This document shows, piece after piece, positions 7,757-33,457 of a stretch of 33,749 bases of DNA. How positions within the stretch are numbered: position 1 is the first letter of the stretch; each line of letters begins with the position of its first letter. Location of the stretch: positions 1-33,749 of the forward strand of contig JAFAZI010000059.1 of NCBI GenBank assembly GCA_019239875.1, read 5' to 3'. Under the pieces are notes generated by a model. The model was not told where the DNA came from, did no database searches, and was given only the letters and a program-made list of their open reading frames with translations. The position numbers were made by a program, and so were the translations under genes. The stretch comes from Frankiaceae bacterium (lineage in GTDB: Bacteria; Actinomycetota; Actinomycetes; JAFAQI01).

Positions 7757-7785
7757 TTCCAGGCACCCCGCGCCGCTGGCGGTGT

Positions 7786-8375
7786 GGCTCGATCGCCGAG
7801 GCGCGCGAAGCGGGCGCTGGGCGGCGTCTCGACGGCCCATTCCGCCCGGCTCGGCGTCCGCATGGCCCATCGGTGCGCGGCTAGGGGTGCGCGTGGCCCA
7901 TCGGCGCGGGGCTCGGGGTGCGCATGGCCCATCGGTGTCACTCGATCGCCGAGCCGCGCGAAGCGGGCGCTTGGCGGCGTCTCGACGGCCCATTCCGCCC
8001 GGCTCGGCGTGCGCATGGCCCATCGGTGCGCGACTACGGGTGCGCGTGGCCCATCGGTGCGCGACTACGGTGCGCGTGGCCCATCGGTGTGGCTCGATCG
8101 CCGAGCCGCGCGAAGCGGGCGCTTGGCGACCCCTCCACGGCCCATTCCGCCCGGCTCGGCGTGCGCATGGCCCATCGGTGCGCGGCTAGGGGTGCGCGTG
8201 GCCCATCGGTGCGCGGCTAGGGGTGCGCATGGCCCATCGGTGTACGGCTGCGGGTGTGCATGGCCCATCGGTGTACGACTACGGTGCGCGTGGCCCATCG
8301 GTGTGGCTCGATCGCCGAGCCGCGCGAAGCGGGCGCTTGGCGACCCCTCCACGGCCCATTCCGCCCGGCTCGGCG
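7786..8375. repeat. Nested tandem repeat array filling a convergent intergenic spacer
   Basis: Two repeat units alternate. A long unit of about 75 bp begins near 7786, 7939, 8091 and 8305 with (G/C)(G/A)CTCGATCGCCGAG; in copies 2-4 it continues with CCGCGCGAAGCGGGCGCTTGG. A short unit of 30-31 bp is marked by GGCCCATCGG, which occurs 11 times between 7863 and 8290. The order is L-SSS-L-SSS-L-SSSSS-L. The spacing between the first three long units is 152-153 bp, and the last is about 62 bp longer because of two extra short units. The array starts 29 bp after the propeller stop and ends at the VOC stop. Unit lengths are not multiples of three, so it is not a coding repeat. The long unit can fold into a GC-rich hairpin around GAA. 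Confidence 0.9.
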
Positions 8376-8810
8376 TCAGCCGGTCTGTTTCCAATCGAAG
8401 TGCTGCACCTCGATGGTGAGGGGCAGCAGGAAGTTCACGTAGAACGAAGACAGCTCGAGTACGCCGAAGTCCTCGACCTCGTTGTCCTTGACGAGCACCC
8501 GCTCATCGCGGCCTTCCCAGGCGCGGGCCCGCTCGAGCATTCCCGCGAGCTCCTGCCGGTCGGCCACGGCCATCCCGTAGTGATCCATGAAGGTCGTCTG
8601 CATGGGGTGCTCGTCGGCCTCGAGGAACACGAACTGCCCGAACTCATACGCCATGAGAACGAGCCGTTGCCGATCGACCGTCATCGTCGGCATCTCCTGC
8701 CAGCCGAAGACGTCGCCGTAGAACTCGAGGATCGCCGCGCGGCCAGCCTCGTCGAGCAGGTCGGCGGGAACCGTCATCGCAACATGGTTGAACCGGGGCT
8801 TGTCGGTCAT
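8376..8810 (-). CDS. VOC (glyoxalase/dioxygenase) superfamily protein
   Basis: A 144-residue protein with the vicinal-oxygen-chelate layout: an opening FNHVAMTVP strand, an FYGDVFGWQEM helix-strand and a second half beginning HYGMAVADRQEL. Members bind a divalent metal and act as lyases, isomerases, dioxygenases or resistance proteins. The opening histidine (FNHVA) and the later acidic residues could be ligands, but I cannot assign a reaction. The start overlaps the stop of the upstream alcohol dehydrogenase (ATGA), so it is the last gene of the leftward dehydrogenase operon. Its stop codon abuts the intergenic repeat array. Confidence 0.85.
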   Translation of the reverse strand: MTDKPRFNHVAMTVPADLLDEAGRAAILEFYGDVFGWQEMPTMTVDRQRLVLMAYEFGQFVFLEADEHPMQTTFMDHYGMAVADRQELAGMLERARAWEGRDERVLVKDNEVEDFGVLELSSFYVNFLLPLTIEVQHFDWKQTG

Positions 8811-9853
8811 GGCCGCACCAGCGCTTTCGTCGAGAGTTCACCGGATGACAGGCGTTTCATGGTCTGCAGCAGGTCGTCGAGGCCCGTGTCCTCTCGAGCT
8901 GCCAGCCGCTCGATCGGAAGGGTCCCGGTTGCGAGCAGGTCCAGGGCGGCGGCGATCCCGTCATCGTCGTAGCAGTACCCGCCGGTCACCACGAGCTCGT
9001 TCAGCAGGATTCGCAGCGGGTTCAGCGTCACTGCCATCGCGCTGGTGCCGAGCAGGACGAGCCGGCCGGTCGGTCGGAGGAGGTCGAGGCCGCCACTGAT
9101 CGCTTCGGCGCGACCGGATGTCTCCACGCAGACGTCGAACCCGTCCGGCAGACACTCCGTCGGCATCGCAGGTGCCGCAGGGAGCCCATCCGGTGCGACC
9201 GCAGCCGTGGCGCCGACCGCCAGCGCTTGCCGGCGCCGGCCTTCGGCTGGCTCCGAGACGACGATGTGCCCGACGCCGCGCGCGGCGAGCGCCGCCACCA
9301 CCAGCAGGCCGAGTGGCCCACCACCGGTGACGAGGACTCGGATCGCGGACGGCTCGGGCGGAAGGTCGGCAAGGGTGAGTCCGTGCAGCGCGACGGCCAA
9401 CGGCTCGGCAAGCGCGGCGGTCCGGGCCGGCATGCCGGGTGGCACCCGATGAAGTGCCGCCGCCCGCGCGAGGTGCAGCTCCGCGAAGGCGCCGCGATGC
9501 GGGTAGTCACCGTGGCGGAGGGGATCGGTCACGCACAGCGATCGGTGGCCGCTCGTGCACCACTCGCACTCACCGCACGTCGACGGTCCGCCGACGACGA
9601 GGTCGCCCGTCGTGACGGCGTCGACGCCCGGGCCGACCGCGACCACCGTGCCCGACCACTCGTGGCCGGGAACAGTGCCGACCGGCGCCCAGCCCTCGAG
9701 CACTGCGTGCAGATCGGTCCCGCAGATGCCGCAGTACTCGATCCGGACGAGCGCTTCGCCCCGGGCCGGCGGAGGGATCTCGAGGTCCTCGATGGACAGG
9801 ACGCCCGGACCCCCGATCACTGCGGCCCGCGTCCGGGCGATGTCCGTCGTCAT
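8807..9853 (-). CDS. Zinc-dependent alcohol dehydrogenase (MDR family)
   Basis: A 348-residue medium-chain dehydrogenase. Catalytic zinc ligands are in YCGICGTDLH and GHEWSG. A structural zinc lobe is present as CGECEWCTSGHRSLC (four cysteines), and the Rossmann motif is VTGGGPLGLL. It oxidises an alcohol or polyol with NAD(P). The ATG at 9853 is chosen because it overlaps the stop of the preceding dehydrogenase (ATGA); a longer open frame upstream runs through that gene and is spurious. It lies in one operon with the GMC dehydrogenase, a second MDR enzyme and the VOC protein, consistent with serial oxidation of an alcohol substrate. Confidence 0.9.
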   Translation of the reverse strand: MTTDIARTRAAVIGGPGVLSIEDLEIPPPARGEALVRIEYCGICGTDLHAVLEGWAPVGTVPGHEWSGTVVAVGPGVDAVTTGDLVVGGPSTCGECEWCTSGHRSLCVTDPLRHGDYPHRGAFAELHLARAAALHRVPPGMPARTAALAEPLAVALHGLTLADLPPEPSAIRVLVTGGGPLGLLVVAALAARGVGHIVVSEPAEGRRRQALAVGATAAVAPDGLPAAPAMPTECLPDGFDVCVETSGRAEAISGGLDLLRPTGRLVLLGTSAMAVTLNPLRILLNELVVTGGYCYDDDGIAAALDLLATGTLPIERLAAREDTGLDDLLQTMKRLSSGELSTKALVRP

Positions 9854-11109: not shown

Positions 11110-12979
11110 GTCGGGCGAGGCGTGCTGCCGCGAGCCCGGCCGTGAGGGTCGCCGTCGCGATCAACGGCAAGGTCGGGTCGCTGCCCGTGCTCGGGAGCGG
11201 GCCGCGATCGCCGCTGTGGCCCGAGTGGCCGTGGTGGTGGGCGTGGTTCTGGCCCACATGCTTGTGCCCGTCACCGAATAGCTTCGTGGCATTACGCAGT
11301 GCCGTTGCCATGATCGTCAGCGTCGGGTTCTGGGCACCGCTGCTGGGGAACACCGAGCCGTCCGCCACGAACACGTTCTCCATGCCGTGCACCATCCCGG
11401 TGCCGTCGGTGACGGAGGTCTTGGGGTTGTGACCCATCCGCATCCCGCCCATCACGTGCGCGCCATGGGGGATCGCCGTACCGGTCAGCCCGTCGCTGAC
11501 CGACTCGGGCACCGCAGCCGCCATGCTCGCGCCCGCGGCCTTGAGGATCGCGGTCATGTGCGGGATGAAGAACTCGATGGCGGCCTGCTCGTGCGCACCC
11601 ATCGAGTACGTGATGCGAGGGACCGGTACGCCGCGGAAGTCCTTCACCTTCGGGTCGAGGTCGACGCGGTTGGTGGCATATGGCAGGTCCTCGCCGACGT
11701 GGCTGATGCCGGCGAGCCGGTCCCGCAGGATGCTGGCCCGCATCAGAGTCTTGAAGTTGGTGCCGAACGGCTTGCCGAAGTTGAGCGGATCGAAGGCTCG
11801 AAGGATGCCGAGGATGTAGGTGTAGATGTTGCCCTCGGCGATCGGCTCCTGGCTGCCGCCGAGCTCCATGATCCCGCCGCGGATGTATGGCAGGCCCATC
11901 GATTTCGCGAAGGCTCGGGAGCCGGGGAAGTCGGGATCGGCGAAGTCCTCGCAGCACTGTGTGGTCGAGCGCCCGCGGTAGGCATGCATCCGTTGGTCGA
12001 GGAAGATGCCGAACCCGTCCATGAAGTTGTGGAACATCAGGTCGCGCCCGATGCGGTCATGCGGGTCCGGGAAGTTTGACAGGTGAGCGAGCCGCGAGGT
12101 CTCGATCGCCGATGCGGCGAGTACGAGGAGCTTCGCACTCGAGTGGCCATGCTTGCCGTGCTTGTCGATCCAGTGCACGCCCGTGGCTCGTTTGCCGTTG
12201 TGCACGACCCGGTCGACGATCGTCTCGTCGCGGATCTCGACCCGGCCGGTGTTGACCGCATGCCGCATGACGGCGAGCGCGCCGATGCGCGCGCCGATCG
12301 GACACCCGTAGCTGCTGCACTGCCCGCAGTTGTTGCACGGTGGCCGGCCGTCGTGGACCCGCGAGTTGATCGCCATCGGGAAGGCGTAGGGATGCAGGCC
12401 GAGTGCGGTGCAGCCGCCGGCCACGGTCGTCGATGCGAGTTGCTGCGGCCCTGGTGGCATGACGAAGCCGCGCTCGCCAGGCGCGTGCTTCAGCACGGGT
12501 GAGTGCGGGATGGCCGACTGCGCGCCGGCCACCCCCATCAGCCGTTCGATGGTCTTGTAGTGCGGCGCGATATCGGCGTACTCGAAGGGCCAGTCCTCGA
12601 CGTCCGTGTCCGGATAGGGGCCGAGCATGGACTTCTTCTTGAAGTCGATGTCCCAGAACCGTGGGGTCTTGGCGTCCCAGTGCACGGTGCCACCGCCTAC
12701 GCATGACGACAGCGGGTTGACCTCGCCGACCTCCTCTTGGGCGCCCGCTGCGGCTCGGAAGGTGCGCGGCTCGGAGAGCGGGTCCGGGATCTCGAACTTG
12801 CGGCTGGCCTTGAGCTCGTCACTGGAGAACGTGGTGCGGATCGGTCCGGGCTTCTCGTAGCCGTGGATGTACTTCGGCCCCTTCTCGAAGATGAGGACGT
12901 CCCAGCCGTTGTGGGTCAGCACCATGCTCGCGACGGCTGCCCCCGCGCCGCTCCCGACCACGATCGCGCGGTCAGCCAT
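11075..12979 (-). CDS. GMC oxidoreductase (gluconate 2-dehydrogenase-like large subunit) with LPSTG-type C-terminal anchor
   Basis: A 634-residue FAD enzyme of the glucose-methanol-choline family. The FAD motif GSGAGAAV begins at residue 9, with Glu32 for the adenosine ribose. A cysteine cluster C215-x2-C218-x2-C221-x4-C226 resembles the possible Fe-S segment of membrane dehydrogenases of this family. The catalytic His/Asn region reads HVMGGMRMG ... GAQNPTLTIMA. After it come a His-rich stretch (HAHHHGHSGHS), LPSTG at about 595-599, a hydrophobic segment and an Arg-containing tail. It has no N-terminal signal. Its start overlaps the Tat-signalled small subunit gene by eight bases, suggesting export as a folded complex. 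The substrate is unknown. Confidence 0.9.
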   Translation of the reverse strand: MADRAIVVGSGAGAAVASMVLTHNGWDVLIFEKGPKYIHGYEKPGPIRTTFSSDELKASRKFEIPDPLSEPRTFRAAAGAQEEVGEVNPLSSCVGGGTVHWDAKTPRFWDIDFKKKSMLGPYPDTDVEDWPFEYADIAPHYKTIERLMGVAGAQSAIPHSPVLKHAPGERGFVMPPGPQQLASTTVAGGCTALGLHPYAFPMAINSRVHDGRPPCNNCGQCSSYGCPIGARIGALAVMRHAVNTGRVEIRDETIVDRVVHNGKRATGVHWIDKHGKHGHSSAKLLVLAASAIETSRLAHLSNFPDPHDRIGRDLMFHNFMDGFGIFLDQRMHAYRGRSTTQCCEDFADPDFPGSRAFAKSMGLPYIRGGIMELGGSQEPIAEGNIYTYILGILRAFDPLNFGKPFGTNFKTLMRASILRDRLAGISHVGEDLPYATNRVDLDPKVKDFRGVPVPRITYSMGAHEQAAIEFFIPHMTAILKAAGASMAAAVPESVSDGLTGTAIPHGAHVMGGMRMGHNPKTSVTDGTGMVHGMENVFVADGSVFPSSGAQNPTLTIMATALRNATKLFGDGHKHVGQNHAHHHGHSGHSGDRGPLPSTGSDPTLPLIATATLTAGLAAARLARHDGDNDSGEDR

Positions 12980-28743: not shown

Positions 28744-28747
28744 GCGG

Positions 28748-28763
28748 CAGTGCGCCAGATCAG
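28748..28763. terminator. Possible bidirectional hairpin between convergent genes
   Basis: On the minus strand GCGCC-TGATCT-GGCGC forms a five-pair stem in the 48-bp gap between the stops of the convergent genes ending at 28743 and 28792. The position fits a shared terminator, but the stem is short and lacks a T-run. The exact edges are approximate. Confidence 0.3.
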
Positions 28764-28791
28764 GCGCTTCTCATCCGCGCAGCTGGGGACG

Positions 28792-29229
28792 CTATTGGTT
28801 GTTGAAAGACGGCGCGACGCGGGCATGGACGAGGTGACGATCACCGAGCGGTGCGGGCAATAAGACGAACCGTTGACGGGACGATGCACACAGTTCACCG
28901 GTGCTACGAAGAATCACCGCGCGGATCAGCACATCAGTACGCCCCTCGCGGATCTGTACACGTGATGGGGCGTCACACTCGTTGCCGTAACTGATCACGA
29001 GGACGCAGCCGCCCTCGCGGATCCTTTCCAACTTCCACGGAACCGAGTGCTGCTGTTTGGTAAGAGGCTCGAAGTCCCTGCCTGGTCGGGTGGGCGGCGC
29101 TTGCGACGGCGCTTCGGTTGCATGCGAGGCGCACGAGTGTGACTGCACCGTTGAGGTCTTGTCGACCGCCGGGGAGCACCCTCCGACCGCCAGACAGAGT
29201 GCCGCCCCAGCTACCCACATTCGATGCAT
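28792..29229 (-). CDS. Predicted lipoprotein
   Basis: A 145-residue exported protein. The N-terminus MHRMWVAGAALCLAVGGC is a lipoprotein signal ending at a lipobox (AVGGC), which supports ATG 29229 over the longer open frame. A low-complexity linker (SQAPPTRPG) is followed by a small folded part with two further Cys (EGGCVLVISYGNECD). Function unknown. It is one of three lipoproteins in the accessory region. Confidence 0.7.
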   Translation of the reverse strand: MHRMWVAGAALCLAVGGCSPAVDKTSTVQSHSCASHATEAPSQAPPTRPGRDFEPLTKQQHSVPWKLERIREGGCVLVISYGNECDAPSRVQIREGRTDVLIRAVILRSTGELCASSRQRFVLLPAPLGDRHLVHARVAPSFNNQ

Positions 29230-29328
29230 CCGCCCATGGTCCCCATCGACCTGGTGAGCTGCCAAACGCGGAGCTGGAGGGGTCAGGCAACCGCGCGAGA
29301 ACGCCAGACAGCCGTAGGCAAGCGGCGC

Positions 29329-29691
29329 TTAGCGTTCGACCGGGGGCTCCCGATGGGCACGTTGCCACTTGCGTGCTGCCAGCAAGTAGCCGACGACAAC
29401 CGCAACCGCACCTGTGCACAGTGCCGCTCGCTCTACCCCCACGGTGTTCAGGAAACCGACCGTAAGAACGCTGCCGGCGAAGCCACTGAACGCCGGGCCA
29501 TACAGGTACCAGAGCGGCCGCGGCGCTGTGTAACGACTCGCCTCCGAGTCTGGAACGACGCGGTCATCCAGCCGTCGCAACCAAGAGCCAATGCTCTCTG
29601 CAGAACCGTAACGCCGCACGCCGCCACAGTCAGCCAAGAACGGCACCTCTAGTCGGCTGGGTGCCGACCTCGTCGGGCGGTTGATAGGCAC
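29329..29691 (-). CDS. Small membrane protein, tandem paralogue B
   Basis: A 120-residue protein. Its core IGSWLRRLDDRVVP, later PLWYLYGP and a C-terminal helix ending WQRAHR align with the product of the adjacent gene at 29692. It has two hydrophobic segments after YGP. The GTG start directly follows the TAG stop of the upstream paralogue, so translation is probably coupled. The first 30 residues are extra relative to the paralogue. Function unknown. Confidence 0.62.
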   Translation of the reverse strand: MPINRPTRSAPSRLEVPFLADCGGVRRYGSAESIGSWLRRLDDRVVPDSEASRYTAPRPLWYLYGPAFSGFAGSVLTVGFLNTVGVERAALCTGAVAVVVGYLLAARKWQRAHREPPVER

Positions 29692-30036: not shown

Positions 30037-30096
30037 AGCGGCACCTATAGTCTGCCGCCTGCGGCGGACGGCGGTGCCGCGTAGAAGAACGAAGCC
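30037..30096. repeat. CACCTATAGTCTG stem-loop element, copy 1
   Basis: GCGGCACC (30038-30045) pairs with GGTGCCGC (30073-30080), and inner GCCGC pairs with GCGGC (30054-30065). The unpaired TATAGTCT and a right tail related to CGTCGCAGAACGGC are shared with copies 2 and 3. It lies in the gene-free stretch 29983-30334 (352 bp); the rest of that stretch (30097-30334) shows no supportable gene. Confidence 0.8.
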
Positions 30097-30334
30097 TTCG
30101 CGTCGCTCCTCGGTTGGGTTGAGCAGACCGCACTCGGTGTCAAGGTTGCGGCACGAAGTGTCGATGTCTGGGCACCAAGACAAATACCGCGTTCGGGAAT
30201 TGCTGCACAGTGAGCCCTGAGAGACGTCTGGCAGAAGGGGACGATGCACGGCCGGGCGCGGAGCCGCACTGAACAGGTGCCGCGAACTCGATCGCCACAT
30301 CCCGTCAACGCGACACAAGAGGCAGGTCCTGAGG

Positions 30335-30715
30335 ATGGCACTCCAAGACAAGTTGGCAAAGAAGGCTGCCCGCGTTCTGAATCCCGGTGAGTCCATCCAG
30401 GCGATCGTCGCGGTGCAGAACTTCCACCCCGCCGTTCAGCTACTCGGCTTCCTCTGGGTTTACCTATTCGGTGGTCGGTACAACTTGATCGTCGCTACGG
30501 ATCAGCGAATTGCGATTCTCCAGACGAAGCTCACGACTTATCGCCATCCGACGGGGGTCGCCGCCTCGCTACCGAGAACGACGACCTTGGGTCCCGTAGG
30601 CGGTCCGCCGGCGTCGATCGAGCTGAATGGCAAGCGGTTCTACCTCATCGCCGGCACGAAGAAGTACGTCGCGATCGCGGATCAGCACCGACCGGCAGCG
30701 CTCGCCGGAAACTAA
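30335..30715 (+). CDS. Small protein of unknown function with one membrane segment
   Basis: A 126-residue protein. It opens with a basic helix (LQDKLAKKAARVLNPGESIQ), has a hydrophobic patch LLGFLWVYLFGGRYN, then VATDQRIAILQT and a KRFYLIAGTKKY strand. The pattern resembles bacterial PH-like proteins in which a hairpin carries VTDRRI; this is a weak analogy. GAGG lies directly before the ATG. Its stop is followed at once by copy 2 of the stem-loop element. Confidence 0.65.
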   Translation: MALQDKLAKKAARVLNPGESIQAIVAVQNFHPAVQLLGFLWVYLFGGRYNLIVATDQRIAILQTKLTTYRHPTGVAASLPRTTTLGPVGGPPASIELNGKRFYLIAGTKKYVAIADQHRPAALAGN

Positions 30716-30772
30716 CGGCTCACCTATAGTCTGCGCGCTGGCGCGCGGGCTAGGTGCCCGTCGCAGAACGGC
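30714..30772. repeat. CACCTATAGTCTG stem-loop element, copy 2
   Basis: AACGGC at 30714-30719 and 30767-30772 are direct repeats around a hairpin: CACC/GGTG outer stem, unpaired TATAGTCT, and GCGCGC-TG-GCGCGC inner stem. It separates the convergent stops at 30715 and 30791. Confidence 0.88.
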
Positions 30773-30790
30773 TTCTAGTTCGGGGTGTGA

Positions 30791-31369
30791 TCACCCCGGT
30801 GGAGCATGGCGGACGGGCTTCACGTGACCGCCCACCAGTCGAAAGATGACCCGCACGGGATTTAGCGTCGCGCAACAAAGCGGGTCCTGCTTCGCGTATC
30901 GGGGATACACGATCGAGACCTCACGACCGCCGCTCCACGAAATCTCCGGATAGAGGTGGCAGCCGCCGCTGTCGCGTCCCACGTAGCGTCCATGGGAGAT
31001 AAACAGGACATTGGCGCATCGCAATCCGTTTGCAAGGTTCTGAGGTCTTGCGACGAGGACTGGACGCATCCCGGCCCAGTAGCCTTTGGCCTTTCGAAGC
31101 TCTATCGGGGACGTCTCGTATCCCTTGGCATGAATGAGTTTCAGCATCCGCCCTTGTGCTGGGTTCAGCTTCGGGGTGGGCGATGGTGATGGATTCTCCG
31201 TCGCGCTAGTCGTTGGTGTAGGACCTGGTGATTCGTTAGCCGTGTTCGACGAACATGAGACCGTCGATCCGAACAAAAGGCCGCACAGCAGAAGGATCCC
31301 GACGCGCCTAGAGCGCGAGGTGGCTACGAAGGCAGGAAGGATGTAGGTCCGAACCCCGAGAACTCTCAC
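30791..31369 (-). CDS. LppP/LprE-like lipoprotein
   Basis: A 192-residue exported lipoprotein. A basic stretch (SRSRR) and hydrophobic core (VGILLLCGLLFGS) lead to a lipobox TVSC, then a Ser/Thr/Pro linker (PTPTTSATENPSPSPTP). The folded part has the layout of the actinobacterial LppP/LprE family: a GY start, MRPVLVARPQ, LFISHGRYVG, a VSIVYPRYAKQDPLCC segment and a final VRVIFRLVGGHV. The GTG at 31369 gives a rather long n-region and is the best available start codon. The family's function is not known; it is anchored outside the membrane. Confidence 0.65.
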   Translation of the reverse strand: MRVLGVRTYILPAFVATSRSRRVGILLLCGLLFGSTVSCSSNTANESPGPTPTTSATENPSPSPTPKLNPAQGRMLKLIHAKGYETSPIELRKAKGYWAGMRPVLVARPQNLANGLRCANVLFISHGRYVGRDSGGCHLYPEISWSGGREVSIVYPRYAKQDPLCCATLNPVRVIFRLVGGHVKPVRHAPPG

Positions 31370-31481
31370 ACCCGCCAGACGATTCAGCACGCTGCGAGGT
31401 TGGCACAGCCGTTCGGTAGCGCCGGATAGGGCGCTCGGGAACGGCACTCCTTCAATAACACGGCGCGTTATCGTTCGGTCG

Positions 31482-31709
31482 GTGACGAACGAGCCCGAGG
31501 ACCTGTTCGATACTCCCGAGGAGGCCGCGCTGAGTGGATGGGCCGAGACACCCTCCGCACAAGCCAAAGTCGTCGAGGTCGACATCCATGGCGATCGTGC
31601 CACGGTGATTATCGAGGTCGCCGCGTCGCGGTCTGACATGAAACGAGAGCGGAACTACTGCCACCGCTCACCAGACGGCCGGTGGATGCTCGGGCACTCC
31701 GAGGGATAG
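31482..31709 (+). CDS. Small hypothetical protein (75 aa), NTF2-like fragment shape
   Basis: A 75-residue acidic protein starting at GTG 31482. The order (helix EEAALSGWAETP, strand AKVVEVDIHGDRATVIIEV, strand RERNYCHRSPDGRWMLGHSEG) is that of small actinobacterial proteins with a SnoaL/NTF2-like half fold; this is a weak resemblance. It is divergent from the LppP-like gene with a 112-bp gap. Its stop overlaps the first bases of stem-loop copy 3. Confidence 0.6.
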   Translation: MTNEPEDLFDTPEEAALSGWAETPSAQAKVVEVDIHGDRATVIIEVAASRSDMKRERNYCHRSPDGRWMLGHSEG

Positions 31710-31767
31710 CGGCCCACCTATAGTCTGCGCGCCTGCGCGCGGGCTCAGGTGCCCGTCGCAGAACGGC
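31708..31767. repeat. CACCTATAGTCTG stem-loop element, copy 3
   Basis: This copy is nearly identical to copy 2 over about 58 bp, with AGCGGC at the left and AACGGC at 31762-31767. The outer stem is CACC/GGTG and the inner stem is GCGCGC-CT-GCGCGC. It separates the convergent stops at 31709 and 31780. Confidence 0.88.
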
Positions 31768-31779
31768 CCCTATTCGCCG

Positions 31780-32421
31780 TTACCTCCCGAGCGCGGCGCC
31801 CTTCCTCACCGCCGTTCCCACGATGCGATGAACGATACGGCTCGACGCAACGCCGCGGCTCGATCCGTCGACAGTCAGCCACAGCATCCCGCGCGGCACC
31901 GGAGCGAGGACTGTCCAGACCTTCCGACGTGGCTCGGCGCCTGATGGGTTCGCCGACGTGACGACCGTCAACTGACCCGGCGGTAGGGAGTAGCTGCTGG
32001 CGACGACTCCGCCTGTCAGATGGCGCAGGCGCTCCCTCCGAGCAGAAGGAACGTCTTCGCACCCGGTTAGGACCAGGGCGCGGTATTCGCGAACAACCCT
32101 GAGTGCAGTTGCGGACGCGAACGGGATGAACGTCTCCTCGATCGACGCCGCGGTCTTACCGCTGGGCTGGTCCAGACCGATCGACTGCCGATGGTCCGGC
32201 GGAAACGTCGGCCAGATTCGGCTAATACACCCCTCGTCCAGATGCTGACCACCGGCGATCAGCATCCACTCGCCCGCGGGTCCGAGGTCGGCTGGCGTCA
32301 GCAAACCTGCTTGCTCTGTCACGGGCGGAGCCTTCACGGCCGAGCCTTGCGACGTGCAGGCGCAGGCCATCCCACTCAGGCCGAACATGGCCGCAGCGAT
32401 GCGCCATTTAGCCCTCAACAC
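31780..32421 (-). CDS. Predicted exported lipoprotein or membrane-anchored protein
   Basis: A 213-residue protein. GTG 32421 is supported by AGGGGG six bases upstream and by the export signal that follows (LRAKWRIAAAMFGLSGMACAC). The lipobox is imperfect (GMAC or CAC), so it may be a lipoprotein or have an uncleaved anchor. The mature part begins after a short linker and reads LLTPADLGPAGEWMLI, then a Cys (EGCISRIWP), a helix with VVREYRALVLTGCEDV, and paired strands to the end, similar to PknH-like or sensor-type extracellular domains of actinobacteria. Function unknown. Confidence 0.65.
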   Translation of the reverse strand: MLRAKWRIAAAMFGLSGMACACTSQGSAVKAPPVTEQAGLLTPADLGPAGEWMLIAGGQHLDEGCISRIWPTFPPDHRQSIGLDQPSGKTAASIEETFIPFASATALRVVREYRALVLTGCEDVPSARRERLRHLTGGVVASSYSLPPGQLTVVTSANPSGAEPRRKVWTVLAPVPRGMLWLTVDGSSRGVASSRIVHRIVGTAVRKGAALGR

Positions 32422-32548
32422 CGCCAACCCCCTGGGGACACTTGTCTCATCGCAATGAACGGCATCCCACGGGCGCAGATTGAGCGGCCCCTTCGGATCA
32501 CTTCGAACGGGCTCGCTAACGATCGGCACCGAAGGCTCGGGTGCCGGG

Positions 32549-32600
32549 AACGGCATCACCTATAGTCTGCGCGGCTTCGATCGCGTGAAGCGCACAAGGC
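32549..32600. repeat. CACCTATAGTCTG element, copy 4 (left half only)
   Basis: AACGGC (32549-32554) and CACCTATAGTCTGCGCG are kept, but the right side diverges and lacks GGTG. An alternative inner stem uses CTTC/GAAG with GCGC/GCGC. The CTATAG of the core supplies the stop codon of the minus-strand frame at 32560. Confidence 0.65.
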
Positions 32601-33087: not shown

Positions 33088-33177
33088 GAGATCAGTCTGA
33101 CGGGATCCAACACCGCGCGGCGGCTAAGCAGGCGCACGAGCGCACCTACACGACGGGCCGTTCGCCGAGATGACGGC

Positions 33178-33369
33178 TCAGGAGAAGTACACCGACCGCG
33201 CAATCCATATCAACCACGCAAGGGCTGCGGACCACACGAGTATGCGTCCACACGACCAGAGAGTGTTGTATGACCTCGATCCGGAACGACCCGTCGTCCA
33301 GTCATACCCACGCGGCTTCGGCCCGTACAGGTACACCCACTCGGCGATGAACTCCAGCAACCACCCCAC
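33178..33369 (-). CDS. Possible small membrane protein (63 aa)
   Basis: From GTG 33369 the frame encodes an aromatic-rich start (WLLEFIAEWVYLYGPKPRG), a polar middle and a C-terminal hydrophobic helix (ILVWSAALAWLIWIARSVYF). The composition looks protein-like, but the start has no clear ribosome binding site. Confidence 0.45.
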   Translation of the reverse strand: MGWLLEFIAEWVYLYGPKPRGYDWTTGRSGSRSYNTLWSCGRILVWSAALAWLIWIARSVYFS

Positions 33370-33457
33370 GAAGCAATTTCGGCAATCTCAGCGCGGATCT
33401 TGACGCGCGTTGCGAACTGGGAACGTATGCGGCGCGAGCGGCACCCATGCCGCGGTT

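Follow-up and report, generated by a model that had tools for sequence, protein, structure and literature searches.

Stem-loop elements of a Frankiaceae bacterium as probable cassette-end sites of an integron-like array associated with a Xer-like tyrosine recombinase

The window, i.e., the whole analyzed stretch of 33,749 nucleotides on contig C51 of a Frankiaceae bacterium, harbors exactly four perfect matches to the motif CACCTATAGTCTG on the plus strand (positions 30042, 30721, 31715 and 32557) and a further copy with two mismatches at 29644. In shuffled sequence, the mean copy number was 0.19 and five copies were never reached, so that the core described for four copies in the original prediction was recovered far above chance. 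The stems claimed for copies 1 to 3 are likewise real. In copy 1, the outer stem is formed by GCGGCACC/GGTGCCGC and the inner one by GCCGC/GCGGC, and copies 2 and 3 both feature CACC(T)/(A)GGTG as outer and GCGCGC/GCGCGC as inner stem. For the plus strand, DNA folding yielded −17.3, −12.4 and −12.4 kcal/mol for copies 1, 2 and 3, the other strand being slightly less stable; copy 4 is devoid of a stem (−5.4 kcal/mol). Copies 2 and 3 belong to a near-identical sub-family of 53–70 bp, for which four other members were found elsewhere in the genome. Copies 2 and 3 therefore do not represent independent covariation events, and the apparent covariation is partly due to common descent.

The element as described earlier is only a part of a site and was read from the opposite strand; the site runs on to a predicted cut of the form G^NT[A/C]. 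In array direction, i.e., on the strand opposite to CACCTATAGTCTG, sites are directional and follow the pattern ...GCAGACTATAGGTG(NN)CCG^NT[A/C]. In total, 19 sites, 18 originating from the window's genome and one from a family relative, were aligned on CCG alone. At the second position after CCG, every one of the 19 carries T (background 0.216; members of the same sub-family do not count as independent), and at the third position 18 of them carry A or C, while the canonical attC motif GTTRRRY occurs at the cut of none of the 19. An inner hairpin with at least five of six pairs was detected in 11/19 sites vs 2.5 expected, or in about 6/14 when the sub-family is counted once. The signature of constant bases and compensating stems originally proposed is only partly general: its constant part is the core box adjoining the predicted cut, and the stem occurs more often than expected but not in every site. 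The outer stem was rejected as a general feature, pairing of the core box being the same upstream and downstream. For copies 1 to 3, the plus strand corresponds to the bottom strand of the cassettes and folds slightly better, as for attC (weak evidence); the substrate may be either a duplex (dif-like) or a folded single strand (attC-like).

The window sites and cassettes described in the following are located on the minus strand. Copy 1 (30039..30077) is a putative cassette-end site (attC analogue), CGGCACCGCCGTCCGCCGCAGGCGGCAGACTATAGGTGCCG^CTC, combining the exact core, the cut rule (predicted cut 30038/30039) and the full hairpin on the plus strand. Copies 2 (30716..30772; cut 30715/30716, GAGCCG^TTA) and 3 (31710..31767; cut 31709/31710, GGGCCG^CTA) are the putative cassette-end sites of the near-identical sub-family, and copy 4 (32551..32575; cut 32550/32551, GATGCCG^TTC) consists of a core without long stem. 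A fifth, diverged site, CCGACTAGAGGTGCCG^TTC, with its inverted partner GGTCGGCACCC upstream, was found at 29641..29690, and a short site, TGCCGTTCCCGAGCGCCCTATCCGGCG^CTA, at 31420..31449, is of identical type to one at L014:7343. The cassette between copies 1 and 2 (30039..30715) contains an ORF (30335-30715, plus strand) that opposes the array direction. It is followed by a cassette with a gene of the LppP/LprE lipoprotein type (PF14041; 30716..31419), and the cassette between copies 3 and 4 (31710..32550) is associated with an ORF within 31780-32559 without Pfam match.

Within the 4.1-Mb genome, an assembly of 206 contigs, the core is concentrated on contig C25 and the window contig, and single copies are present on C19 and C200. 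Contig C25 encodes a tyrosine recombinase of 300 amino acids (L014:2388-3290) located between arrays: both core matches to its left lie on the minus strand and all nine to its right on the plus strand, vs 2.6 matches expected overall. A broader site pattern, composed after sites had been seen, is distributed by direction as 23:7 right of the recombinase, 2:6 left of it and 15:4 in the window. Furthermore, the inverted repeat CGCCGGTTAGGTCCG/CGGACCTAACCGGCG encloses the recombinase gene, i.e., an outward-facing core is present on each side. Based on automatic gene calls, 6/11, 6/9 and 4/5 sites of three arrays are located no more than 90 bp after a stop codon on the same strand, compared with 11–15% of random positions. 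Counting against an array, some ORFs run opposite to its direction, and the sites are diverse, with some junctions showing no recognizable core. The window copies are located on C51 and the integrase on the separate contig C25; judged from orientation, it is plausible that both contigs are joined as one array. Diverged sites were also observed near the single C19 and C200 copies, namely at L015:7052 (minus, CAGACTATAGGGAGCCG^CTC) and L016:10842 (plus, GGCGGCAGACTATGAGTTCCG^TTA), and suggest small arrays without a nearby integrase.

The C25 recombinase possesses the residue set of tyrosine recombinases (R151, H240, R243, H266 and Y275) and is composed of a core-binding and a catalytic domain (PF02899/PF13495 and PF00589); an arm-binding domain was not found. 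It best resembles XerD and XerC (116 and 111 bits), without reaching the equivalog cut-offs of about 330, and scores 61 bits against the IntI model TIGR02249, which has a cut-off of 265. Judged by sequence alone, the IntI-specific additional domain (I2) near patch III is absent: Xer profiles align along the enzyme's length with no large insertion, the IntI-model match covers mainly the C-terminal part, and 92 residues separate arginine I from arginine II. The related enzymes of a second actinomycete genome, G288, and of the Frankiales MAG locus L036 behave alike in profile searches. An AlphaFold model of the L036 integrase was of too low quality (pLDDT 61) for verifying this absence. None of the proteins encoded in G000, G288 or the L036 genome passed the IntI model, the best reaching 80 bits. 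A true integron, in which an IntI-type enzyme encoded here or elsewhere acts on unusually diverged attC sites, would account for the layout, for the single gene per cassette and for inverted partner boxes in some sites (in G288, TGCCG-TTCG/CGAA-CCGGCA). The low IntI-model scores across these three genomes, the missing GTTRRRY motif and the missing insertion nevertheless render it very unlikely. The suggestion that the element is a site for an integron recombinase came close: the sites are directional junctions between cassettes, with a tyrosine recombinase linked to them. This enzyme resembles Xer proteins and stays far under the IntI cut-off.

Two cassettes are common to C25 and the window. 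They are 89–90% identical, and their homology stops at the predicted cut or close to it. Cassette 1 (28745..29301; lipoprotein-like ORF 28792-29265; start GGCG^TTC) is 90% identical to L014:4144-4679. The match starts at G^TT in both copies, but the 3' ends lie in different sites, a point against the array reading, the limit at 28745 being read as a degenerate site, CACTGCCG^CTC. Cassette 2 (33141..33438), extending from GTGCCG^CTCG to TAGGTGCG^, is 89.5% identical to its C25 counterpart (L014:1180-1485 region), and the resemblance of the two copies spans G^CTC to TAGGTGC(C)G^ without continuing beyond. Such shared cassettes, whose edges coincide with the cut or lie close to it, indicate that the sites are the edges of units that were moved or duplicated. 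Cassette mobility is thus suggested indirectly, through two cassettes in two contexts. A circular cassette was not found, and a search for synteny around an empty site returned none, relatives sharing just one flanking gene.

These shared units also bear on the two other readings originally considered, a structured RNA and a site of REP-associated transposases. REP systems link a Y1/HUH transposase to palindromes. Here, the linked enzyme is a tyrosine recombinase and the sites follow genes head-to-tail, which does not fit a REP-transposase site. Among the array proteins scanned with Pfam, none matched a Y1/HUH transposase. A structured RNA is not supported, as Rfam matches at gathering thresholds were lacking and the sites represent boundaries of shared cassettes. 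More generally, a dispersed palindromic element (REP/MITE-like or a terminator-like RNA hairpin) copied between intergenic regions is extremely improbable: the units are partly palindromic and often directly follow genes, but the sites are directional and concentrated at few loci, the stem is not universal, an Rfam family is absent, and what the loci have in common are gene cassettes bounded by sites.

It is therefore proposed that the stem-loops are, with good probability, attC analogues, i.e., recombination sites located at cassette ends in an integron-like array, and that the C25 recombinase, lacking the integron insertion, probably recombines them. In a typical cassette, a short gene would precede a site that ends in ...CTATAGGTG(NN)CCG, and strand exchange is predicted between the final G of CCG and the NT[A/C] opening the next cassette. 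The two outward-facing cores flanking the integrase, CCTAACCGGCG^CTA and ^TTC, would act as attI analogues; with two such cores, cassettes could be added on either side, resulting in two arrays of opposite polarity. We infer catalysis by the C25 enzyme, a circular intermediate and ongoing activity. As to its origin and nature, the system may tentatively be regarded as Xer-derived cassette capture, either independent of IntI or preceding the gain of I2, with partly palindromic sites used without an I2 helix and a two-sided integrase module whose arrays grow both ways.

The same layout was observed in other genomes. At locus L036, where the integrase is 63% identical, nine core matches were found vs 0.56 expected. 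The eight on the right share one direction, and the single match on the left is oriented oppositely; all eight inspected sites obey ^(C/T)T[A/C]. The clearest array is that of G288 (integrase 54% identical), in which GCGCAGATGTGCCG^(A/T)TC follows the stops of successive small ORFs in one direction and an opposite site lies beyond the integrase. A SUKH protein and a sigma factor are encoded among its cassettes, most of which have no Pfam match. Both layouts use cores of their own. A second G288 contig carries another array (L131, G288:C49:2001-22000) with sites at 9353, 10125, 12836, 16652 (−) and 17531 (+); it is located away from the integrase on C34, and a weak tyrosine-recombinase match of a different kind is present at C49:8536-9336. 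In G366, a sister species of G288, GAAGTGCCGATCGC occurs at positions 286, 4922 and 5250 of contig C162 (L129), all on the plus strand, and may represent a further array with a distinct core.

On both sides of the integrase, homology within the pairs G023/G017 (71%) and G092/G044 (70–73%) breaks off near a core and gives way to unlike DNA, the 3' side in G044 running into the contig end. The integrase module itself thus seems to be bounded by outward-facing sites. Counting against the proposed explanation, the flanks of integrase relatives of about 45% identity from other families contained no comparable cassette-site array. Two related integrases, in G056 and G039 (46% and 44% identical), lie near tandem arrays of 34-bp units with 17.2 and 18.6 copies (L043:14813-15396 and 9740-9807; L044:12817-13451 and 12017-12151). 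These units combine a TGCCG core with a hairpin whose stem differs yet pairs (GCGCG/CGCGC vs GGGCG/CGCCC), and could represent units without a gene or arrays of integrase-binding sites.

Among 395 genomes of the class, the core 13-mer was detected beyond its own genome once each in the family members G002 and G010, two further matches resembling chance occurrences. The G002 copy looks like a real site; that of G010 is cut by the contig end. At the G002 site (L058:4650-4737), the core reads CAGACTATAGGTGCCG^ATC and the inner stem, CCGCC/GGCGG, is compensated; no integrase close to the C25 enzyme was found in this genome at E ≤ 1e-20. A core search of plasmids gave no match, and the six matches in viral contigs, five of them in one viral sequence, lie in unrelated contexts.

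For pdif modules on Acinetobacter plasmids, action of XerC/XerD on dif-like modules has been proposed. Accordingly, host XerC/XerD might act on dif-like sites also here, the C25 recombinase being a bystander or itself a cassette. The host does possess a XerD (C157) and a probable XerC (C141) of its own, and some G288 and L036 sites show inverted arms around a short center. This explanation is nonetheless unlikely, as array direction flips at the C25 integrase, with matching outward cores on both sides, and as a related integrase is found at the corresponding position of L036 and G288, the site cores varying by genome, which is expected of a co-evolving dedicated enzyme. As with Xer/dif systems and pdif modules, XerC/XerD represent the closest enzyme family and some sites have inverted arms; in contrast to them, the enzyme is separate from the host XerD, and the sites are directional, many per array and vary by genome together with a dedicated integrase.

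The proposed array with a dedicated recombinase would work like an integron and, by IntI and attC tests, is not a member of this class. Shared with integrons are a tyrosine recombinase that neighbors an array of small units with one, mostly unknown, gene each, directional sites where genes end, a crossover beside a G followed by a T-rich start, and arrays without nearby integrase (C19, C200 and G288:C49) resembling CALIN. The unidirectional array of genes with 3' sites was found, the exceptions being reversed ORFs and junctions without clear core, and the matching outward cores next to the integrase are predicted attI analogues. In contrast to integrons, the enzyme is Xer-like, lacks the IntI insertion and scores far below the IntI model, the sites are often shorter and devoid of a GTTRRRY core, some genes are reversed, and outward sites flank the integrase on both sides, with arrays in both directions.

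The additional domain of IntI has been called defining (PMC9668308). IntI is thought to descend from a Y-recombinase-like ancestor that gained the I2 helix and switched from double- to single-strand recombination, intermediates lacking (PMC7790495). Simple tyrosine recombinases of mobile elements (PMC8138268) share with the C25 enzyme a core-binding and a catalytic domain without a detected arm-binding domain. Among the groups named there, cassette shuffling is linked to an integron-like subgroup that carries an insertion in the catalytic domain, whereas the C25 enzyme, by its sequence, has none. Actinobacteria were reported to be without complete integrons (PMC9024848), and Actinobacteriota are listed among the integron-bearing phyla in a review (PMC8618304). 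Among the open-access titles and abstracts retrieved, none presents a non-IntI cassette platform for the phylum, subscription papers and preprints being outside this coverage.

A cassette array linked to a Xer-like enzyme without I2 would allow the switch from double- to single-strand recombination to be tested in a natural setting. Moreover, actinobacteria would possess their own capture platform, one that searches relying on IntI and GTTRRRY-type attC sites would probably overlook. Since most of the examined cassette genes have no Pfam match, the arrays may hold unknown functions.

Elsewhere in the window, overlapping direct repeats with a period of approximately 152 bp were observed inside a coding region (7780-8380), and similar sequence is present at L013:7150-7231.
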